A DNA stretch of 28,912 bases. Origin: a virus. Numbering within the stretch: position 1 is the stretch's first letter; the number at the start of each line of letters is the position of its first letter. The DNA is taken from positions 1-28,912 of the IMG/VR virus record IMGVR_UViG_3300037189_011430; one strand, written 5' to 3'. Under the pieces are notes generated by a model that worked only from the letters and a program-made list of their open reading frames with translations, ran no database searches and was not told the origin of the DNA. This document shows, in pieces, positions 12,263 through 28,615 of the stretch. The translations under genes and the position numbers were made by a program.

Positions 12263-12345
12263 CAGCAGATCAGCCAGCGCGCGATGGCGCCTGTCGCGCT
12301 GCCGATCACGACGGCCAGAGCTATCTCGATCAGGAAGTCGCGCAT
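12262..12345 (-). CDS. Tiny membrane peptide (27 aa) after terS
   Basis: An ORF of 27 residues starting MRDFLIEIALAVVIGSATGA and ending IARWLIC. A charged N-terminus precedes one hydrophobic segment of about 18 residues. ATG 12345 overlaps the 3' end of terS and has GGAG about 8 bases upstream, so the start is well supported for so small a gene. A single-pass membrane peptide, possibly linked to lysis or membrane signalling, is inferred. Confidence 0.48.
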   Translation of the reverse strand: MRDFLIEIALAVVIGSATGAIARWLIC

Positions 12346-12953
12346 TGAGCCATCTCCGTTGCTGAGCCGTCGATGACCATACCACGACCGAAGCGCGCCT
12401 TGATCGCTTCACGCAACGCCTCCTGCTGCTCGTCGGTCAGTTTTACGCCATCCTCGCGGGCATCACCCTCAGTGCCGTTCATGCCGAAGGCCACCCGCTC
12501 CATCCGCACCAGCCGCTCGCGGCAGCGCACCAGCTTCTCGAACGTCTCGGCGAGGCTGTCGACCTGCAACACGGTGTCGGGCGGGTTGGTCTGCACCGCG
12601 AGCTGGAGGTAGCCCATCAGGCCGTCGCAGAAGGTCGTGTCGCGGGCGATGGTGGCGCGGTGCTGCCGGATCACCTCGACCTGGGCGGCGGCGGCTGTCT
12701 GCACCGCCTGGGTGGCCTGCTCGGGGCGCAGGCCGGTGATCGCCATGACGGTGGGCAGCGGCTCGTCGTCGCGCGTCTCCTGCGCCGCCTTGCGGATCAC
12801 CTGGGTGGCGCCGGCCAGGGCCTTGCTCCAGCCCTCCTTGATCGCCCGTTTGCGGATGCCCTCACCGCTGACGCCATACGCCTTGCCCAGGCTGGCGTTG
12901 CCGGGATAGGCGCCGGCCTCATAGTCGGCGCGGATCGAGGCCCAGTCGATCAT
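12330..12953 (-). CDS. terS: Terminase small subunit-like protein
   Basis: A 207-aa protein directly upstream of terL. Residues 1-45 (MIDWASIRADYEAGAYPGNA, then SLGKAYGVSGEGIRKRAIKE) form a helix-turn-helix of the type used by small terminases to recognise the packaging site. The rest is a long helical region suited to ring oligomerisation, with a C-terminal segment around 170-190 rich in Glu and Lys. Start is ATG 12953, which overlaps the upstream stop as ATGA; the open frame to 12980 is not needed. The assignment rests on the HTH, length and position. Confidence 0.78.
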   Translation of the reverse strand: MIDWASIRADYEAGAYPGNASLGKAYGVSGEGIRKRAIKEGWSKALAGATQVIRKAAQETRDDEPLPTVMAITGLRPEQATQAVQTAAAAQVEVIRQHRATIARDTTFCDGLMGYLQLAVQTNPPDTVLQVDSLAETFEKLVRCRERLVRMERVAFGMNGTEGDAREDGVKLTDEQQEALREAIKARFGRGMVIDGSATEMAQCATS

Positions 12954-13348
12954 GCGCGCCGCTTGTCGAGGAGCGCCCACCGGCGAAGCTGGGCAGCCGT
13001 CGGCTCACCCATGACGTGGCGATGGGTGCGGTAGCGCCGGCCGCCGGAGCGCAGCACGCTGGCGACCGACGGCAGCCGCGCCGTCTCGCGCAGGCGCCGC
13101 GCCTCGAACTCGGTGATCCATGCCACCACCTGGGCGACCGGGTCTTCGGCCGGCCGGCGATTGGCCGTGGCAGCCGCCGCCAGCGCCTGGAGCTGGCGCA
13201 GCTTGCCGAGTATCTGGCCGGAGGGGAGCTTCAGCGCGCAGTCAGCCACCAGCTCGCGGATCAGCGGCGGAAGGTGGCTATGGTGCCCCAGGTCTTCGGA
13301 TCGGTCGCCCTGGACCGCGCCGACGCCGGTTGATGCGTTGCTGGCCAT
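12950..13348 (-). CDS. Hypothetical protein, first gene of the late operon
   Basis: A 132-aa basic protein starting MASNASTGVGAVQGDRSEDL at ATG 13348, with GGAGGTT 5 bases upstream. The frame stays open to 13831, but that upstream part is the structured leader and lacks a convincing start. The protein is helical, Ala/Arg-rich (KLPSGQILGKLRQLQALAAA), ends RRWALLDKRRA, and has no membrane segment. It is the first gene after the candidate late promoter and precedes terS. No family is recognised; DNA binding is possible from its charge. Confidence 0.65.
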   Translation of the reverse strand: MASNASTGVGAVQGDRSEDLGHHSHLPPLIRELVADCALKLPSGQILGKLRQLQALAAAATANRRPAEDPVAQVVAWITEFEARRLRETARLPSVASVLRSGGRRYRTHRHVMGEPTAAQLRRWALLDKRRA

Positions 13349-13370
13349 TCCAACCTCCAGGGTGGGGGCT

Positions 13371-13421
13371 GCCTCGCCCTGGGTGCCAGCGGCCGGGCGA
13401 AGGCCGCCTCCAGGGCGAGGC
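13371..13421 (-). other. Large structured leader hairpin before the late operon
   Basis: Twelve-base perfect arms GCCTCGCCCTGG (13371-13382) and CCAGGGCGAGGC (13410-13421) enclose a second stem, GCGGCC/GGCCGC (13389-13394 and 13402-13407) with a 7-base loop. It lies in the untranslated leader 22 bases before the first late ATG and could stabilise the mRNA or regulate ribosome access. Confidence 0.6.
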
Positions 13422-13441
13422 AGGATCGCAGGAGGTAAAGC

Positions 13442-13461
13442 CCTCGGTCGCCCGACCGAGG
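13442..13461 (-). other. Second leader hairpin, possible attenuator
   Basis: CCTCGGTCG and CGACCGAGG are perfect 9-base arms with only two bases between them, so the folded stem would be about 8 bp with a 4-base loop. On the minus strand GCTTTACC follows. It lies just after the expected start of the late transcript. Too weak a T-tract for a confident terminator. Confidence 0.45.
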
Positions 13462-13480
13462 TGGCCATCCCGCAACCGTG

Positions 13481-13509
13481 AATGTAGTTGGCGGTGGTTG
13501 CAGCGACAA
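13481..13509 (-). promoter_or_regulatory. Candidate late promoter
   Basis: Minus-strand -35 TTGTCG (13504-13509), 17-base spacer, -10 TACATT (13481-13486, four of six to consensus). The start of transcription would be near 13474, giving a leader of about 126 bases with two hairpins before the first late gene. The -35 box lies inside a perfect dyad at 13503-13524. No other promoter was seen between the terminator and the late genes. Confidence 0.55.
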
Positions 13510-13524
13510 CTGCTAAGTTGTCGC
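13503..13524. promoter_or_regulatory. Dyad operator over the late -35 box
   Basis: Perfect inverted repeat: arms GCGACAACT (13503-13511) and AGTTGTCGC (13516-13524) with spacer gcta. Two further copies of the same 9-mer are at 13535-13543 and 13633-13641, and a near copy, CCGACAACC, at 13563-13571. Overlap with the -35 box suggests binding of a phage regulator that blocks or recruits RNA polymerase. Confidence 0.55.
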
Positions 13525-13760
13525 GCGTGAGGCGGCGACAACTCGGCCCGCCAACAGGCTCCCCGACAACCAGCCAACAACAACGCCTTGCCGCCTTGCC
13601 GCCCGATAAGTGCTGGTTGGCGCAGCCACAACGCGACAACTCGCGCCTGCCGCGCCAGCACGCCCCATAATCATGTCGCCCGGCAAGCTGGACCTGGGAT
13701 TGCCGCAGGTCCAGCGACCGGCCTCCGGCCGGGATGCCCTGGGATGCCGCGATGCGGGCA
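13525..13760. other. Non-coding control region with repeated half-sites
   Basis: No gene on either strand is supported here. Besides the two GCGACAACT copies, it has several GTTGGC/GCCAAC elements (for example 13615, 13550, 13573), a direct repeat of GCCTTGCC near 13584, and a perfect 9-base inverted repeat CTGGACCTG/CAGGTCCAG at 13688-13714 followed by CCGGCC/GGCCGG at 13719-13733. With the flanking leader and terminator the gene-free stretch runs from 13349 to 13870. Confidence 0.5.
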
Positions 13761-13792
13761 AAGAAAAGCCCGGCCGCGCGAACGGCCGGGCT
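13761..13792 (-). terminator. Intrinsic terminator closing the early/middle region
   Basis: A 10-bp GC stem (AGCCCGGCCG, 13767-13776, and CGGCCGGGCT, 13783-13792) with a 6-base loop. On the minus strand the stem is followed by TTTTCTTTG, the expected U-tract. It lies about 80 bases after the last early/middle gene and separates it from the late promoter region. Confidence 0.8.
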
Positions 13793-13870
13793 GAGTTTAG
13801 GGAGGAAACGTCCATGCCGGCGACGCCACACCGCCGACCGCGCCAGGATGGCCCTGACCGGGCCGGGGCG

Positions 13871-13972
13871 TCAACCCAGGATTGGGTTGCCCAGGCTCCG
13901 GTAGTAGAGGACCACCTCATGGTAGCCGAGCCGCAGCAGCTTCTCGGCGAAGGTCAGCGGGGGATGGGTCAC
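13871..13972 (-). CDS. Small hypothetical protein (33 aa)
   Basis: An ORF of 33 residues, MTHPPLTFAEKLLRLGYHEV onward, starting at GTG 13972 that overlaps the stop of the alpha-CTD-like gene (GTGA). The tight overlap matches the junction style of the whole genome and it is the last reading frame before the terminator. Amphipathic, two Tyr-rich patches, no known family. Its small size limits confidence. Confidence 0.45.
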   Translation of the reverse strand: MTHPPLTFAEKLLRLGYHEVVLYYRSLGNPILG

Positions 13973-14595
13973 GACAGCGGCGCCTTGAAGGGCTTATCCA
14001 CCAGCTTGATGGCAGCGTCGACCAGGGCCTCCAGCCGCTCGCTCTCCTTCGCCTCCATGTTGTCGCTCTCGGTGCCCTTGGCGCGCTGCATGATCGCGGC
14101 ATCGCCGGCGACATTGCGGGCCTCCACCAGGGCCGCCCTGGCCTCCCGCAACTTCCACTCGGCGAAGCGCCGGCGCTCGACCTCGTAGTTGTTGGCGACC
14201 AGCAGCCCATCAATGCGGTCGTCCTTGGCGCGCATGACCTCATCGGCGCCCAGGGGGCGCGTAGCTGGCGGCCTGATCGCGCGAAGCTCGGCGACCAAGG
14301 CTCGGATAACCTCTTTGGTCTGCTTCATCGCCACAGCCGCCACGCTCCGCTCCAGCGCAGCCCGATCCTCAGCCCCTGGCGGCGCTTTCCCTGCCTCGGC
14401 GTCCCGCACGAAGTCCCGCAGCTCCTTCAGGGAAACGGTGCCGAAGTTCGGGATGCGGCGAAGGTGCTGGTCGCTCAGCTTCAGCACCTCGCCCATGGTC
14501 CTGATGCCATCGTTGTGCAGGCATTGTCGAAGCCGCGTCGACAGACGCTTCTCGTCCATCGGCGCGACATCCCGCCAACTCTTGATGTCGTCCAT
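13969..14595 (-). CDS. RNA polymerase alpha C-terminal-domain-like protein
   Basis: A 208-aa protein. Residues about 17-64 (LSTRLRQCLHNDGIRTMGEV, then LKLSDQHLRRIPNFGTVSLK) match the helix-hairpin-helix core of the bacterial RNA polymerase alpha-subunit C-terminal domain, which binds UP elements and activators. Relative to the E. coli domain, equivalents of Arg265 (R21), Asn294 (N50), Gly296 (G52) and Ser299 (S55) are retained; Asn268 is Gln and Lys298 is Val. The remaining 140 residues are charged helix. The alpha N-terminal assembly domain is absent. Start ATG 14595 has GGAGGA 6 bases upstream. A role in redirecting host polymerase is inferred; a general HhH DNA-binding protein is the alternative. 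Confidence 0.68.
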   Translation of the reverse strand: MDDIKSWRDVAPMDEKRLSTRLRQCLHNDGIRTMGEVLKLSDQHLRRIPNFGTVSLKELRDFVRDAEAGKAPPGAEDRAALERSVAAVAMKQTKEVIRALVAELRAIRPPATRPLGADEVMRAKDDRIDGLLVANNYEVERRRFAEWKLREARAALVEARNVAGDAAIMQRAKGTESDNMEAKESERLEALVDAAIKLVDKPFKAPLS

Positions 14596-15395
14596 CACCA
14601 CTCCTCCTTCTTCAGGCCCTCGCTGAACACCCCGGCGAGGTTGCGGCCATTCAGGACGCCGCTGACCTCCAGCCGCAGCGCCTCCAGGCGCAGCATCAGC
14701 GGGGTTCCCTGCGCCACCTCCTGATAGCGCGCCAGGACATCTCCGGTGTGGCGCAGGCAGTCAGCGAGCGTGGTGTAAGCCACCCGCGCCAGGGTGCGGT
14801 CGGTGGGGCGGCCAGCAGCGGGCTTGCCGGCCTGCTCGACCATCAACGCCTCGATCATGGTCTGCGGCGTCGCGGCGCCGGTGAGGTAGGCAGCGTTCAC
14901 GTCATGCACGCCGCTGACCACCGCCTTGAACCGCTCCTGCGGCGTGCTGCCGGTCGAGCCGTAGCCACCCTCACCACGCTCGGTCTGGCTCAACTCCTCG
15001 GCCAACACGAACTCGGCGCGCACCACCGGGGCGATGACGCCCTGGGCGATCCGCATGCCGCGCGTCACGATGAAGGGCTTATCACCGGAGTTGTAGAGGA
15101 TGACCTGCACCTCGCCCCTGAAGTCGCTGTCGACCGTGCCGGGCGAGTTCACCACCATGAGGCCGGCCTTCAGCGCGTGACCGCTGCGCGGCCGAACCTG
15201 CATCTCATGGCCCGGCGGCACCTCGAAGCAGAAGCCGGTCGGGATCAGGGCGCGCTCGCCGGGCTGGATGGCGCACTGGCCAGTGTGGTTCACGGCAGAC
15301 GACAAATCGAAGCCGGCCGCGCCGGGGGTGGCGTAGGCCGGGAGGTCCAGCCCCTCGCCGTGCGGCAGGCGCCGCAGCTTCACGATCTGGCTCAT
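14595..15395 (-). CDS. dut: dUTPase with C-terminal extension
   Basis: A 266-aa protein whose first 150 residues are a complete trimeric dUTPase: motif I AAGFDLSS (26-33), motif II PRSG (69-72), motif III GTVDSDFRGEVQV (86-98), motif IV RIAQGVIAPV (115-124) and motif V RGEGGYGSTG (140-149). It hydrolyses dUTP to dUMP, keeping uracil out of phage DNA and feeding thymidylate synthesis. Residues 151-266 form an unknown helical extension not found in usual dUTPases of about 150 aa. The start at ATG 15395 overlaps the preceding stop as ATGA. The neighbouring deoxyribosyltransferase-like gene supports a nucleotide-metabolism unit. Confidence 0.92.
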   Translation of the reverse strand: MSQIVKLRRLPHGEGLDLPAYATPGAAGFDLSSAVNHTGQCAIQPGERALIPTGFCFEVPPGHEMQVRPRSGHALKAGLMVVNSPGTVDSDFRGEVQVILYNSGDKPFIVTRGMRIAQGVIAPVVRAEFVLAEELSQTERGEGGYGSTGSTPQERFKAVVSGVHDVNAAYLTGAATPQTMIEALMVEQAGKPAAGRPTDRTLARVAYTTLADCLRHTGDVLARYQEVAQGTPLMLRLEALRLEVSGVLNGRNLAGVFSEGLKKEEW

Positions 15396-15850
15396 GCCGC
15401 ATGCACCTCCGGCAAGCAGTCCAGGGCTTCGATGACCTGCTGCACGGTGGTGTGGATGCCGTCGGCCAGGAGATACATCAGCTCCGGCTCGAAGCCCTTC
15501 TCGTTCAGTAGGATGAAGGTCGGCTTGCCCCGGCCGACCATGTAGCCAGCCTCGATGTGGGCGCTGCGGCCCGAGGGCAGCAGCAGGACGCACGTATCGG
15601 CCCAGTCCATCGCCGCCTTGTCGAGGGCGAAGCCGGCGGCCGGGATGCCGCCGTGGATCAGATTGGCGTACTTCTCGGGCGTCCAGTCCTGCCACGCCGG
15701 GTCCATCTCCCTCCAGGCGAAGCCGGTGTTGCCCGGTGCCGGGTTGCGGAAGTCGTAGCAGAGGTGGCCAGCCTCGCGCAGCGCGGCCAGCACGTCGAAG
15801 TAGATCGGGTTGCGCCAGGAGCTGGCGAGGTAGATGCGGCGGGCGGCCAT
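15392..15850 (-). CDS. Nucleoside 2-deoxyribosyltransferase-like protein
   Basis: A 152-aa protein beginning MAARRIYLASSWRNPIYFDV, with the N-terminal strand and polar loop typical of the nucleoside 2-deoxyribosyltransferase fold, then a Trp-rich middle and CVLLLPSGRSAHIEAGYMVG near residues 87-106, matching the conserved substrate/catalytic Glu segment. The family cleaves or transfers N-glycosidic bonds of deoxynucleosides; some relatives are phage nucleotide-salvage enzymes. Start ATG 15850 follows AAGGAGG by 6-7 bases; an upstream TTG at 15880 is rejected. Exact substrate cannot be inferred. Confidence 0.72.
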   Translation of the reverse strand: MAARRIYLASSWRNPIYFDVLAALREAGHLCYDFRNPAPGNTGFAWREMDPAWQDWTPEKYANLIHGGIPAAGFALDKAAMDWADTCVLLLPSGRSAHIEAGYMVGRGKPTFILLNEKGFEPELMYLLADGIHTTVQQVIEALDCLPEVHAA

Positions 15851-15941
15851 GTCGGCCCTCCTTGGTTTGTTGGTTGGCAAGATGCCCGGCTCCCCGTCTT
15901 CCCGCTGTATGCGCCTGCGAGCCGCAGCCTGCGCGGGTTGA

Positions 15942-16020: not shown

Positions 16021-17028
16021 TTACCGCGAGGCGGTCTGGCCCGGCAGCGTCAGCAGCGGGATCGGGGCGCTGGCGTAGAGGTTCTGCGGCAGCGTGCCAT
16101 TCCAGCGCTCGGCCGTGCGGAGCTGCACCAGCAGCGGGTTGCTGCCCAGCGCCTTGGCCTGCGCTTCGATGGACGCCGCCTCAGCCTCGCCGCGCAACCG
16201 GATCGCGTCGGCCTGGGCCTGCGCCTCCAGCTTCTGGCTATCGGCCCGGCCGCGCGCCGCCTCGATGGCGGCATTGGCCTCACCCTTGGCGCGCTCGACC
16301 GCCGAGACGGCGTCGGCCGTGGTGCGGGCCTGATTCTGCTGGGCCACCGCCGCCAGATCGACCGCCCGGCGATACTCGGGGCTGTAGTCGAAGTTGACGA
16401 GCTGGAGGTCGACCACCTCGACGCCATACAGCGCCATGGCCTGCTCCCGCACATGGCCCAGCAGCGCCGTCACTATGGCGGCCCGCTGGGTCGGGATCGC
16501 CTCGGCGTGGCGCTGGCCGACCTCGATCTTGGCCCGGTCGATCACCATCGACTGGAGCCGCTGGTCGACGTTGCGACCCTGGCGAAACACCCGCTCGACG
16601 CTCTCGGCCGGAACCTGCCACTGGACGGTGATGTCGAGGTCGACGTGCTGCGGCTGGGCACCGCTGGTGAACGTCTCCAGCTTGGTCAGCGTCAGGGTCT
16701 GGAGGCCCAGGCTGACCAGCTCGATGCCGTCGATCCAGGGCGCCTTCAGGTGCAGGCCAGGGCCAGCGACATAGCTGAACCCGCCGTTGCGGGTGACCAC
16801 GGCACGCTCACGCTCATGCACGCTGAACAGGCCGGAGATGACGGTCGCCAAAATGGCCACGCCACCAACGCCGTAGATGATGCGGCGGCCGAGGCGGCGG
16901 GCGGCGGCGCGGCCGGCCTCAGCGGCCTCACGCTCAACCCGGTCGCGGTATTCTTGCGGGCTTTCAGGGCGCCCCGCCGTGGCGTTCATTGCGGGGTTGC
17001 TCATCATGCTGTCGTTGCGCGGGGGCAT
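16021..17028 (-). CDS. SPFH/Band 7 domain membrane protein
   Basis: A 335-aa protein. A charged cytoplasmic N-terminus (1-49) precedes one transmembrane helix (about 50-70, IIYGVGGVAILATVISGLFS), then a Band 7/SPFH domain (72-230) with the ERAVVTRNGGF and GPGLHLKAPWID blocks typical of prohibitin/HflK-type proteins, and an Ala/Glu-rich coiled coil (about 230-290). SPFH proteins form large membrane rings and in bacteria control the FtsH protease. ATG 17028 has GGAGGAGG upstream. Phage copies are uncommon. A role in protecting phage factors from FtsH, or in membrane remodelling, is inferred only. Confidence 0.88.
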   Translation of the reverse strand: MPPRNDSMMSNPAMNATAGRPESPQEYRDRVEREAAEAGRAAARRLGRRIIYGVGGVAILATVISGLFSVHERERAVVTRNGGFSYVAGPGLHLKAPWIDGIELVSLGLQTLTLTKLETFTSGAQPQHVDLDITVQWQVPAESVERVFRQGRNVDQRLQSMVIDRAKIEVGQRHAEAIPTQRAAIVTALLGHVREQAMALYGVEVVDLQLVNFDYSPEYRRAVDLAAVAQQNQARTTADAVSAVERAKGEANAAIEAARGRADSQKLEAQAQADAIRLRGEAEAASIEAQAKALGSNPLLVQLRTAERWNGTLPQNLYASAPIPLLTLPGQTASR

Positions 17029-17209: not shown

Positions 17210-17821
17210 CTAGAAGGGGATGTCGTCGTCGAGGTCGCCGCCACCCCTGGGGGCATCCCACTGGCCGCCACCACGGCCACCGCCGCCGCGCTGACCATCG
17301 CCGCCGGTGCCGCGACCGCCGCCATAGCTCGCCTGCCCACCACCCTGCGGCCGGCCACCACCGCCGCCCGCCGCGTGGCCACCGCTGGGAGCGGCGCCAT
17401 TCCCGCCGGCCGCAGGCCGCTGCTGCTGCTGCTGGCCTCCCCGGTCATCCTGGCGGGCATCCCCGCCACCCTGCTGCCGGCCGCCGATCAGGGCAATATC
17501 ACCCCGGAACTGCCGCAGCACGACCTCGGTGCTGAACTTGTCGGCGCCGCTGGCGTCCTGCCACTTGCGGGTTTCGATCTGGCCTTCGAGGTAAACCTCG
17601 CTGCCCTTGAACAGGTAGCGCTCGGCAATCTCCCCCAGCTTCTCGTTGAAGATGGCGACCCGATGCCACTCGGTACGCTCTTGCCGGTTGCCATCCTTGT
17701 CCTTCCACGTCTCAGACGTGGCGACCGACAGGTTCACGACCTTGCCGCCGTTCTGGAAGTTGCGGACCTCCGGGTCTTTGCCCAGGCGGCCGACGAGGAT
17801 GACCTTGTTGACTCCAGCCAT
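17210..17821 (-). CDS. ssb: Single-stranded DNA-binding protein
   Basis: A 203-aa SSB. The N-terminal OB-fold (about residues 1-112) starts [20 protein letters not shown] and has the family blocks [15 protein letters not shown] and [14 protein letters not shown] Gly/Gln/Arg-rich disordered linker of about 85 residues follows, ending with the acidic tip DDDIPF that recruits replication and repair partners. It coats single-stranded DNA in phage replication and recombination. ATG 17821 overlaps the upstream stop (TAATG) and has AAAGGAA before it. The length is typical of bacterial SSBs. Confidence 0.97.
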
Positions 17822-27150: not shown

Positions 27151-28064
27151 CAGATCGCTCCTTGCGCCCGCAGCCGGGCCTTCATCTCGGTGGCAGTTTC
27201 CGGGGCGGCAAGGGCAGCGGCCTTCGCCGCCTTGCTGGTGCCGGCCCGCTGGTTGAAGAAGCCCCGGATCGCCGCGACGGGGTCGCCGCCATAGCTCGCC
27301 GTGGCGAAGTGCAGCTCCACGTCGCGCAGCGCCTGGATCACCTGGGTGCCGCCGCCCAGAGCCTTGGCACCCTGACCGATCAGCACGCGAACCTTGTCGA
27401 GCGGCAAGGCTGGGGCGAGGCGCGAGATGATGGCGACCCCCTCGGTCCAGAGCTGGCGCTTGATCCGCTCGGCCTCGCTCTCCGGGGCGCCGGTGTCGCC
27501 GCCACCCTGGATCACCCCCAGCGGCGGCAATGCCGCCTGAACCGGCCTCACCTCGGGCTGCGGCTCGGGGTCACGGCGGGGCGCAGCCTCGCCCTCTCCA
27601 GCGTTAGCTGGAGAGGTATCTTCTGGTAACTGGTAACTAGCAGGTGCGACGGCATGTGCCGTGGCAGGTGCGACGGCATCTGCCACGGCAGAGGTGGTTT
27701 GCTTGTTTTTCAGACGCTTACCATCGCCATGGCTGCACTCGGCAGCGGCGGTTTGCCGCGCCCTGTAACTCGTAGTTTCGATGCACGTCTCGCTGGCCCG
27801 GCGGTTCCTGATGAGGCCGCCGGCGACCTCGATCTTACCCTTGTCGATCAGCGAAGCCTTGATGGCCTTCCATTGCCGGCCGACCTTGGTGACCGTCGGC
27901 ATGACGGCGTCGTCGTCGCGCAGGCGGTCATTGGACTTGAAGATGTGGTCGAGGATGCGCCGGTAAGCCAGCTCCTCCATCGCCGTGAGGTCGCTCATGT
28001 CGTCGACCGCAGCAGCCGGCCACCACCTGATCCAGAGCGGGTTCTTGCTGGCCCCCTTGGTCAT
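27150..28064 (-). CDS. DUF1376 replication-associated protein
   Basis: A 304-aa protein starting MTKGASKNPLWIRWWPAAAV. Residues 1-95 match DUF1376: a leading Trp-rich segment with DLTAMEELAYRRILDHIFKS, then MPTVTKVGRQWKAIKASLID, a winged-helix-like fold found in phage replication initiator-type proteins. A disordered Ala/Pro linker and a C-terminal helical domain (ERIKRQLWTEGVAIISRLAP) follow. ATG 28064 overlaps the upstream stop as ATGA; the open frame continues upstream to 28196 in low-quality sequence and is rejected. Likely DNA-binding at replication start; exact role inferred. Confidence 0.7.
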   Translation of the reverse strand: MTKGASKNPLWIRWWPAAAVDDMSDLTAMEELAYRRILDHIFKSNDRLRDDDAVMPTVTKVGRQWKAIKASLIDKGKIEVAGGLIRNRRASETCIETTSYRARQTAAAECSHGDGKRLKNKQTTSAVADAVAPATAHAVAPASYQLPEDTSPANAGEGEAAPRRDPEPQPEVRPVQAALPPLGVIQGGGDTGAPESEAERIKRQLWTEGVAIISRLAPALPLDKVRVLIGQGAKALGGGTQVIQALRDVELHFATASYGGDPVAAIRGFFNQRAGTSKAAKAAALAAPETATEMKARLRAQGAI

Positions 28065-28615
28065 TCGATTGCGTCCTGGGCCTGCCGGCGGCCATAGGCG
28101 ACCGCGCAATGCGGCGTGCAGTAGGGCCTGCCGACCTCGCTCGGCTCCTCGCAGAACCGCCACGGCCGGTCGGCGGTCTTGTCTTCGAGCGGCCACTGGC
28201 AGCCGCGATGCAGCGCGTTGACCCGCCGTGGCGCCGCCGGCCTGCCGACCACCCGATAGAGCGTCGGGTCAGCCACCGGCGCCAGCCTGACCACCAGCGG
28301 CGGCTTCTCCGGCTGCTGCGGCGGCGAGGGGGTGGGCGGGACAACAATGGGCGGGGGTGGGGGCGGCAGGGGCGGCGCCAGCGCGCCCTCGGGCTGAGGG
28401 GTCTTCCGTCGACGGGCGCGACGCCGCGCCAGCAGCTCCTCCTTGGTCGCGCTGGGGCGCGGCGCCTTCTCGGCGATCTGGGTGCCGGCCTTCCGCAGCC
28501 GGAAGCGCTTGCCGGTGACGGTGCCCAGGCTCAGCCCGTAGCGCGCCGCCAGCACATAGCCCGACTCGGTGCCGCGCAGATCGGCCAGCATCTGCTCGGT
28601 CCAGAACACCGCCAT
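28061..28615 (-). CDS. gcrA: GcrA-family transcription regulator
   Basis: A 184-aa protein with GcrA architecture: N-terminal helix-turn-helix (residues 1-43, MAVFWTEQMLADLRGTESGY, then GLSLGTVTGKRFRLRKAG), a long Pro-rich linker and a conserved C-terminal Cys module, GCQWPLED (138-145), FCEEP (154-158) and YCTPHCAVAY (165-174), which in GcrA contacts sigma70. GcrA binds CcrM-methylated GANTC DNA and helps transcription initiation in alphaproteobacteria. ATG 28615 overlaps the upstream stop (TGATG). A phage copy could retarget host polymerase to phage promoters; that is inference. Confidence 0.88.
   Translation of the reverse strand: MAVFWTEQMLADLRGTESGYVLAARYGLSLGTVTGKRFRLRKAGTQIAEKAPRPSATKEELLARRRARRRKTPQPEGALAPPLPPPPPPIVVPPTPSPPQQPEKPPLVVRLAPVADPTLYRVVGRPAAPRRVNALHRGCQWPLEDKTADRPWRFCEEPSEVGRPYCTPHCAVAYGRRQAQDAIE

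Follow-up and report, generated by a model that had tools for sequence, protein, structure and literature searches.

What would a phage do with a domain of bacterial RNA polymerase? The question is raised by a gene in a viral stretch of 28,912 nucleotides (positions 1 to 28,912 of IMG/VR record IMGVR_UViG_3300037189_011430; hereafter the window). An initial annotation had proposed that this gene encodes a phage protein whose N-terminus resembles the C-terminal domain of the RNA polymerase alpha subunit (alpha-CTD), fused to a long charged helical region and devoid of the N-terminal assembly domain of alpha. The open reading frame runs on the minus strand from an ATG at 14595 (alternative GTG at 14601) to 13969. 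It is strongly coding by its codon composition, the GC content at third positions being 0.80-0.92 in this frame as against 0.42-0.78 in the two other frames. The presumed phage origin also stands: the record is that of a virus, and a terminase, a portal protein and a Mu gpT-like head protein are encoded in the same window. The ATG and the stop codon of the dUTPase gene overlap by one base (TGATG), which suggests translational coupling. The features of the locus are collected in Table 1.

Table 1. Features of the alpha-CTD locus and of the window around it
Feature	Position	Strand	Basis
Terminase small subunit; first packaging gene after the intergenic region	12330..12980	-	PHROGs
Four exact AGTTGTCGC copies, at 13503, 13516, 13535 and 13633	13503..13641	.	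exact repeat search
mmgR/suhB-family small RNA (RF00519)	13753..13828	-	Rfam, full length, 52.3 bits against a cut-off of 41
Possible 33-aa ORF, GTG overlapping the alpha-CTD gene stop codon (GTGA)	13871..13972	-	read by eye
Alpha-CTD gene, 208 aa (N-terminal alpha-CTD-like domain and long helical C-terminal region)	13969..14595	-	ORF list, PF03118, codon composition, AF2
Predicted helical tail, residues 66-208	13972..14400	-	AF2 helices; no relative in database searches
Alpha-CTD-like domain, residues 15-62	14410..14553	-	PF03118; AF2 pLDDT
dUTPase with C-terminal extension	14595..15401	-	family match; stop overlapping the alpha-CTD gene ATG
Nucleoside deoxyribosyltransferase-like gene, upstream in the same row	15392..15880	-	phrog_12607, E 2.9e-45
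Band-7/HflK-HflC-like (FtsH modulator-like) protein, replication/nucleotide row	16021-17028	-	Pfam, PHROGs, NCBIfam
Single-strand DNA-binding protein (SSB), upstream in the same row	17210..17821	-	Pfam, PHROGs
GcrA-like protein	28061..28615	-	PF07750, 30.1 bits against a cut-off of 26.9

That the first 65 or so residues represent a true relative of alpha-CTD is firmly supported, as sequence, profile and predicted fold agree. Pfam family PF03118 (RNA_pol_A_CTD) matches the protein with 41.8 bits (E 9e-11) against a cut-off of 23.8, which excludes a chance match; the core had been proposed at residues 17-64, within two residues of the boundaries found by Pfam. The remaining Pfam matches up to E=1 are all below their cut-offs and include no helix-hairpin-helix (HhH) family. 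In a phmmer search of all PDB sequences, 51 out of 51 matches were RNA polymerase alpha chains, and a profile made from the window protein and 21 viral alpha-CTD domains had significant PDB matches to RpoA only, the sole non-RpoA chain being a ski2-type helicase at E 0.37. A search of PHROGs with the protein gave no relevant family. In an AlphaFold2 (AF2) model, built with a 22-row alignment, residues 21-60 are predicted at pLDDT 93-97. The first 43 matches of this model in a Foldseek comparison with the PDB are RpoA alpha-CTDs, ahead of any other protein, with a TM-score of 0.91 of target and an rmsd of 1.2 A for 7vpd_S, and an rmsd of 1.1 A for the Caulobacter alpha-CTD on AT-rich DNA (9zum); a model of the domain only gives the same result. 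The E-values given by Foldseek are weak, which is usual for a fold of only 55 residues, and the fold assignment is based on probability and TM-score. The homology is thus borne out, and a generic HhH domain of the DNA ligase or ComEA type, named earlier as the competing identity, could be rejected.

The remainder of the protein does not resemble RpoA. NCBIfam RpoA equivalogs do not score higher than 35 bits, where their cut-offs exceed 200, and the alpha N-terminal domain (PF01000) is absent from the ORF, as had been noticed initially. An N-terminal domain hidden elsewhere in the phage was considered as well, but PF01000 was not found in the 36.4 kb of another contig from this virus, which is 99.98% identical to the window across the whole length of the window. 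For the region behind the domain AF2 predicts, with medium confidence, helices at residues 75-107, 128-173 and 178-200, in support of the long helical region that had been proposed; database searches with these approximately 140 residues (66-208) returned no relative.

Clues to whether the domain may still bind DNA come from its alignment, free of gaps, with 21 alphaproteobacterial RpoAs, read in E. coli numbering. Five of the seven DNA-contact positions are kept (R265, N294, G296, S299 and E302), in agreement with the earlier remark that several such residues are retained, and two are changed (N268 to Q and K298 to V). Because of K298V and N268Q the protein may bind DNA less tightly than a canonical alpha-CTD. 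The sigma contact of the E. coli alpha-CTD, E261, is R in the window protein, so that the known contact between alpha-CTD and sigma should suffer, and E286 and E288, contacts for activators (287-determinant), are replaced by D and H, respectively. In total, 11 of the 24 positions that are invariant in RpoA are changed. Of 18 other viral alpha-CTDs, all have R265, G296 and E302, 17 have N268 and N294 and 16 have S299, which suggests that constraint acts on the DNA-contact face of the viral proteins; E261 is kept in 14. By this comparison the window protein is one of the more diverged viral alpha-CTDs, and its residue pattern speaks for DNA binding rather than for mimicry of the canonical sigma contact.

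All likely genes near the alpha-CTD gene lie on the minus strand, in the order SSB, Band-7 protein, deoxyribosyltransferase, dUTPase, alpha-CTD protein, possible 33-aa ORF and a small RNA (sRNA) of the mmgR family, the 3' stem of which is a terminator-like element downstream of the operon. Past the sRNA there is a 420-base intergenic region (13348-13767), followed by a 131-aa ORF and then by the terminase and portal genes. Of the large genes in the replication/nucleotide row, the alpha-CTD gene comes last, in front of the intergenic region and the packaging row. Late regulators of phages are often encoded at this point, between replication and packaging genes, and on the basis of gene order the window protein may occupy such a place. 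The match of the neighbouring dUTPase stops near residue 151-156 of 268, and its C-terminal extension of about 110 aa has no match in Pfam, PHROGs or NCBIfam.

In the intergenic region a single motif is repeated, AGTTGTCGC, with four copies within 139 bases, two of which form the perfect palindrome GCGACAACT-TAGC-AGTTGTCGC. The motif occurs nowhere else in the window, and no other 420-base stretch of the window contains four copies of any 9-mer. The repeats are a possible operator, origin or pac site; a scan for sigma-70 promoters gave nothing exceeding chance.

The GcrA-like gene and the mmgR-family sRNA both point to an alphaproteobacterium, which is probably the host, and more narrowly towards Rhodospirillales/Acetobacterales-like bacteria, of which Roseomonas is an example. 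The GcrA-like protein, far below the cut-off of the NCBIfam GcrA equivalog, appears to be a phage relative of the sigma70 co-activator of the Alphaproteobacteria. The best matches of the sRNA in plasmid DNA are from Roseomonas, Skermanella and Indioceanicola. Located between phage genes, the RF00519 copy looks like a phage-borne version of a host regulatory sRNA. When viral contigs were scanned with the sRNA core CGTTTCCTCCCTARACT, at least 120 stretches matched, and RF00519 scored over the gathering threshold in 17 of 20 loci (18 from the CGTTTCCTCCCTARACT pattern and two phage-isolate regions), Microcystis phage MJing1 included, where viral contigs with RF00519 may include prophages with host flanks.

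The exact window protein is found in one virus lineage, represented by the two near-identical records, and a search with alignment A3 found the same virus and one Bradyrhizobium locus only. PF03118 is absent from eight phages that share the portal and mostly the terminase (four of them also the head protein), which rules out a core gene of this phage group. The alpha-CTD gene is therefore probably an acquired accessory gene and would not be part of the core late switch of the group. Free alpha-CTDs are also rare among the 115 sampled genomes of Alphaproteobacteria: PF03118 was found in 109, nearly always in RpoA, with some two to four matches in other or partial frames.

The novelty that the initial annotation implied is weaker than supposed, since public databases already name phage proteins with an alpha-CTD (e.g. 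those of Goe8 and Mazun), and annotation pipelines thus know them. Our scans of viral contigs yielded about 20 distinct non-RpoA ORFs with an alpha-CTD. Each of ten viral records searched has exactly one PF03118 match, and six records lack the alpha N-terminal domain. Isolate phages with an alpha-CTD outside RpoA are Bacillus phage Goe8, Microbacterium phage Mazun and Ruegeria phage V16. Further phage alpha-CTD proteins are named in BFVD; Mithril and Finch are known from Foldseek matches only. In some viral ORFs the alpha-CTD is C-terminal and follows helical or uncharacterised regions; an N-terminal alpha-CTD with a tail occurs in the window and in the viral loci L011, L028, L069, L070 and L072. 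L070 also matches HHH_5, and both L070 and L072 are flanked by VRR-NUC-type nuclease and DNA-polymerase-like genes (read by eye).

In the locus L022 (L022:5605-6267; IMGVR_UViG_3300031760_000073) a Sigma70_r4 domain (58 bits) and an alpha-CTD (65.7 bits) are joined in one protein, and a nearly identical fusion is present in L027 (3300031867_000049). These fusions tie the viral alpha-CTDs to promoters and favour a promoter role of the class. The fused protein resembles a miniature -35/UP recognition module. A further locus, L010, encodes a protein whose N-terminal region resembles a sigma factor more weakly (phrog_351, E 0.006).

In a domain tree of low resolution (64 columns) the window protein is weakly grouped with a Bradyrhizobium plasmid protein (92/83) and with V16, and the other viral copies are scattered among the RpoAs. 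Several separate captures of the alpha-CTD by viruses are likely on this basis, 64 columns being short of proof and a tree of a domain of about 50 residues having too few columns for dating or rooting a capture. Two kinds of candidate relatives were discarded. ORF40 of Erythrobacter phage vB_EliS-L02 has been published as an RNA polymerase alpha C-terminal domain protein (PMC9127768), but it (L078:26543-27064) has no PF03118 match and its relatives in other phages are annotated as tRNA-synthetase or hypothetical, and the name is probably a misannotation. Records labelled as phage with high identity to the alpha-CTD of E. coli or Streptomyces were left out, as most of them seem to contain host rpoA through mislabelling or contamination.

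What, then, could the protein do? The reading that we prefer, and to which we would give an even chance, is that of a DNA-binding transcription regulator acting on the host polymerase. An alpha-CTD would have been captured from a bacterial rpoA and fused to the long helical tail. The domain would grip the minor groove of promoter-upstream DNA, as the CTD of RpoA itself does, and the tail would form an oligomer, or dock on RNA polymerase or another factor. Some of the promoters would in this way attract or retain the host polymerase, and the effect would fall at the switch from the replication genes to the packaging and structural genes.

A free alpha-CTD could also work by competition, soaking up host activators, NusA or UP-element DNA and so damping host transcription, the polymerase not being recruited. 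A domain without the alpha dimerisation domain would suit such a decoy, as would the general retention of the DNA face and of E261 in viral alpha-CTDs and the two positions of the Goe8 homologue in its record, one of them the genome start. We nevertheless consider it unlikely for the window protein, since E261R, E286D and E288H make the canonical partners less likely to bind and a simple decoy leaves the 140-aa tail unexplained. It is likewise improbable that the alpha-CTD fold is reused here as a generic DNA-binding adaptor, i.e. an HhH-like module that binds the minor groove and serves replication or nucleotide metabolism, with no link to RNA polymerase. A use outside transcription is conceivable because of the neighbouring genes for SSB, deoxyribosyltransferase and dUTPase and because V16 gp23 joins the domain to a pyrophosphatase-like domain. 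These are the best arguments for an adaptor, and the surroundings of L070 and L072 agree with them. The best arguments against it are the sigma region 4 fusions, which point to promoters, and the conserved DNA face of the viral alpha-CTDs; in addition, the window sequence is specifically RpoA-like, with no HhH family at cut-off (the relative L070 does match HHH_5), and early or middle genes of phages in general typically have neighbours of this kind.

A decaying fragment of a captured rpoA, or an ORF that has no selected function, is very improbable. The restriction of the exact protein to one lineage and the number of changed RpoA-invariant positions would fit decay, but the strong coding composition, the start coupled to the dUTPase gene, a frame that is intact across 208 codons and the retention of the core fold with R265, G296 and E302 all argue against it. 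The preferred reading of a promoter-directed regulator can be extended to the viral class: tailed phages may repeatedly have captured the alpha-CTD of their hosts' RNA polymerase and may use it as a plug-in part that recognises promoters and redirects the host polymerase, be it by itself, with a helical tail or in fusion with sigma region 4, and the window protein would be a diverged, tailed version at the early-to-late switch. We regard this extension as tentative and rather doubtful.

As far as can be judged from sequence, the alpha-CTD gene may help the virus to steer host transcription. Phages are known to act on the same domain of their host: T4 modifies the alpha-CTD. Rac of the phiKMV-like phages is reported to lead to cleavage of alpha (PMC7552054). 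The literature searched contained no functional study of a phage-borne alpha-CTD, nor any work on a phage with a copy of its own. An alpha-CTD that recurs, apparently after several captures, and is in some cases joined to sigma region 4 would give phages a simple means of rewiring host promoters, and one that can be tested.

The window protein shares with Goe8 gp005 and Mazun gp26 (PF03118, 50.5 bits) the free-standing alpha-CTD in a tailed phage, but in those two proteins an unrelated region comes first and the domain lies nearer the C terminus, whereas in the window it is N-terminal and followed by another tail. Goe8 gp005 (78 bits) is encoded at the very start of the genome, with a second copy in the record; the start of SPO1-like phage genomes holds host-takeover genes. 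Ruegeria phage vB_RpoS-V16 gp23 (40.8 bits) is alpha-CTD-like, comes from an alphaproteobacterial phage and is 40% identical over 50 residues; it differs in the nucleotide pyrophosphatase-like domain (phrog_5658) that follows the alpha-CTD, and in virus family and gene context. The Bradyrhizobium plasmid proteins (e.g. WP_256470647.1) have the free-standing domain and the RLR(N/Q)(A/C)L signature in common with the window protein, but they are plasmid-borne and lack such a helical tail, two of the three examined being ORFs of 84-96 aa and one of 194 aa. With the alpha-CTD of RpoA (e.g. Caulobacter, 9zum) it shares the fold, 30-40% identity over about 50 residues and five of the seven DNA-contact residues, and the 'ND' and 'PNFG' signatures are common to the window protein and alphaproteobacterial RpoA. 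In contrast to RpoA, its domain is N-terminal rather than C-terminal, carries N268Q, K298V and E261R, is followed by the helical tail and is not preceded by an assembly domain. Distinctive for the window protein are thus, besides its absence from the eight related phages, the N-terminal alpha-CTD, the unique helical tail of 140 aa and the SSB–dUTPase–alpha-CTD operon in front of the packaging genes.
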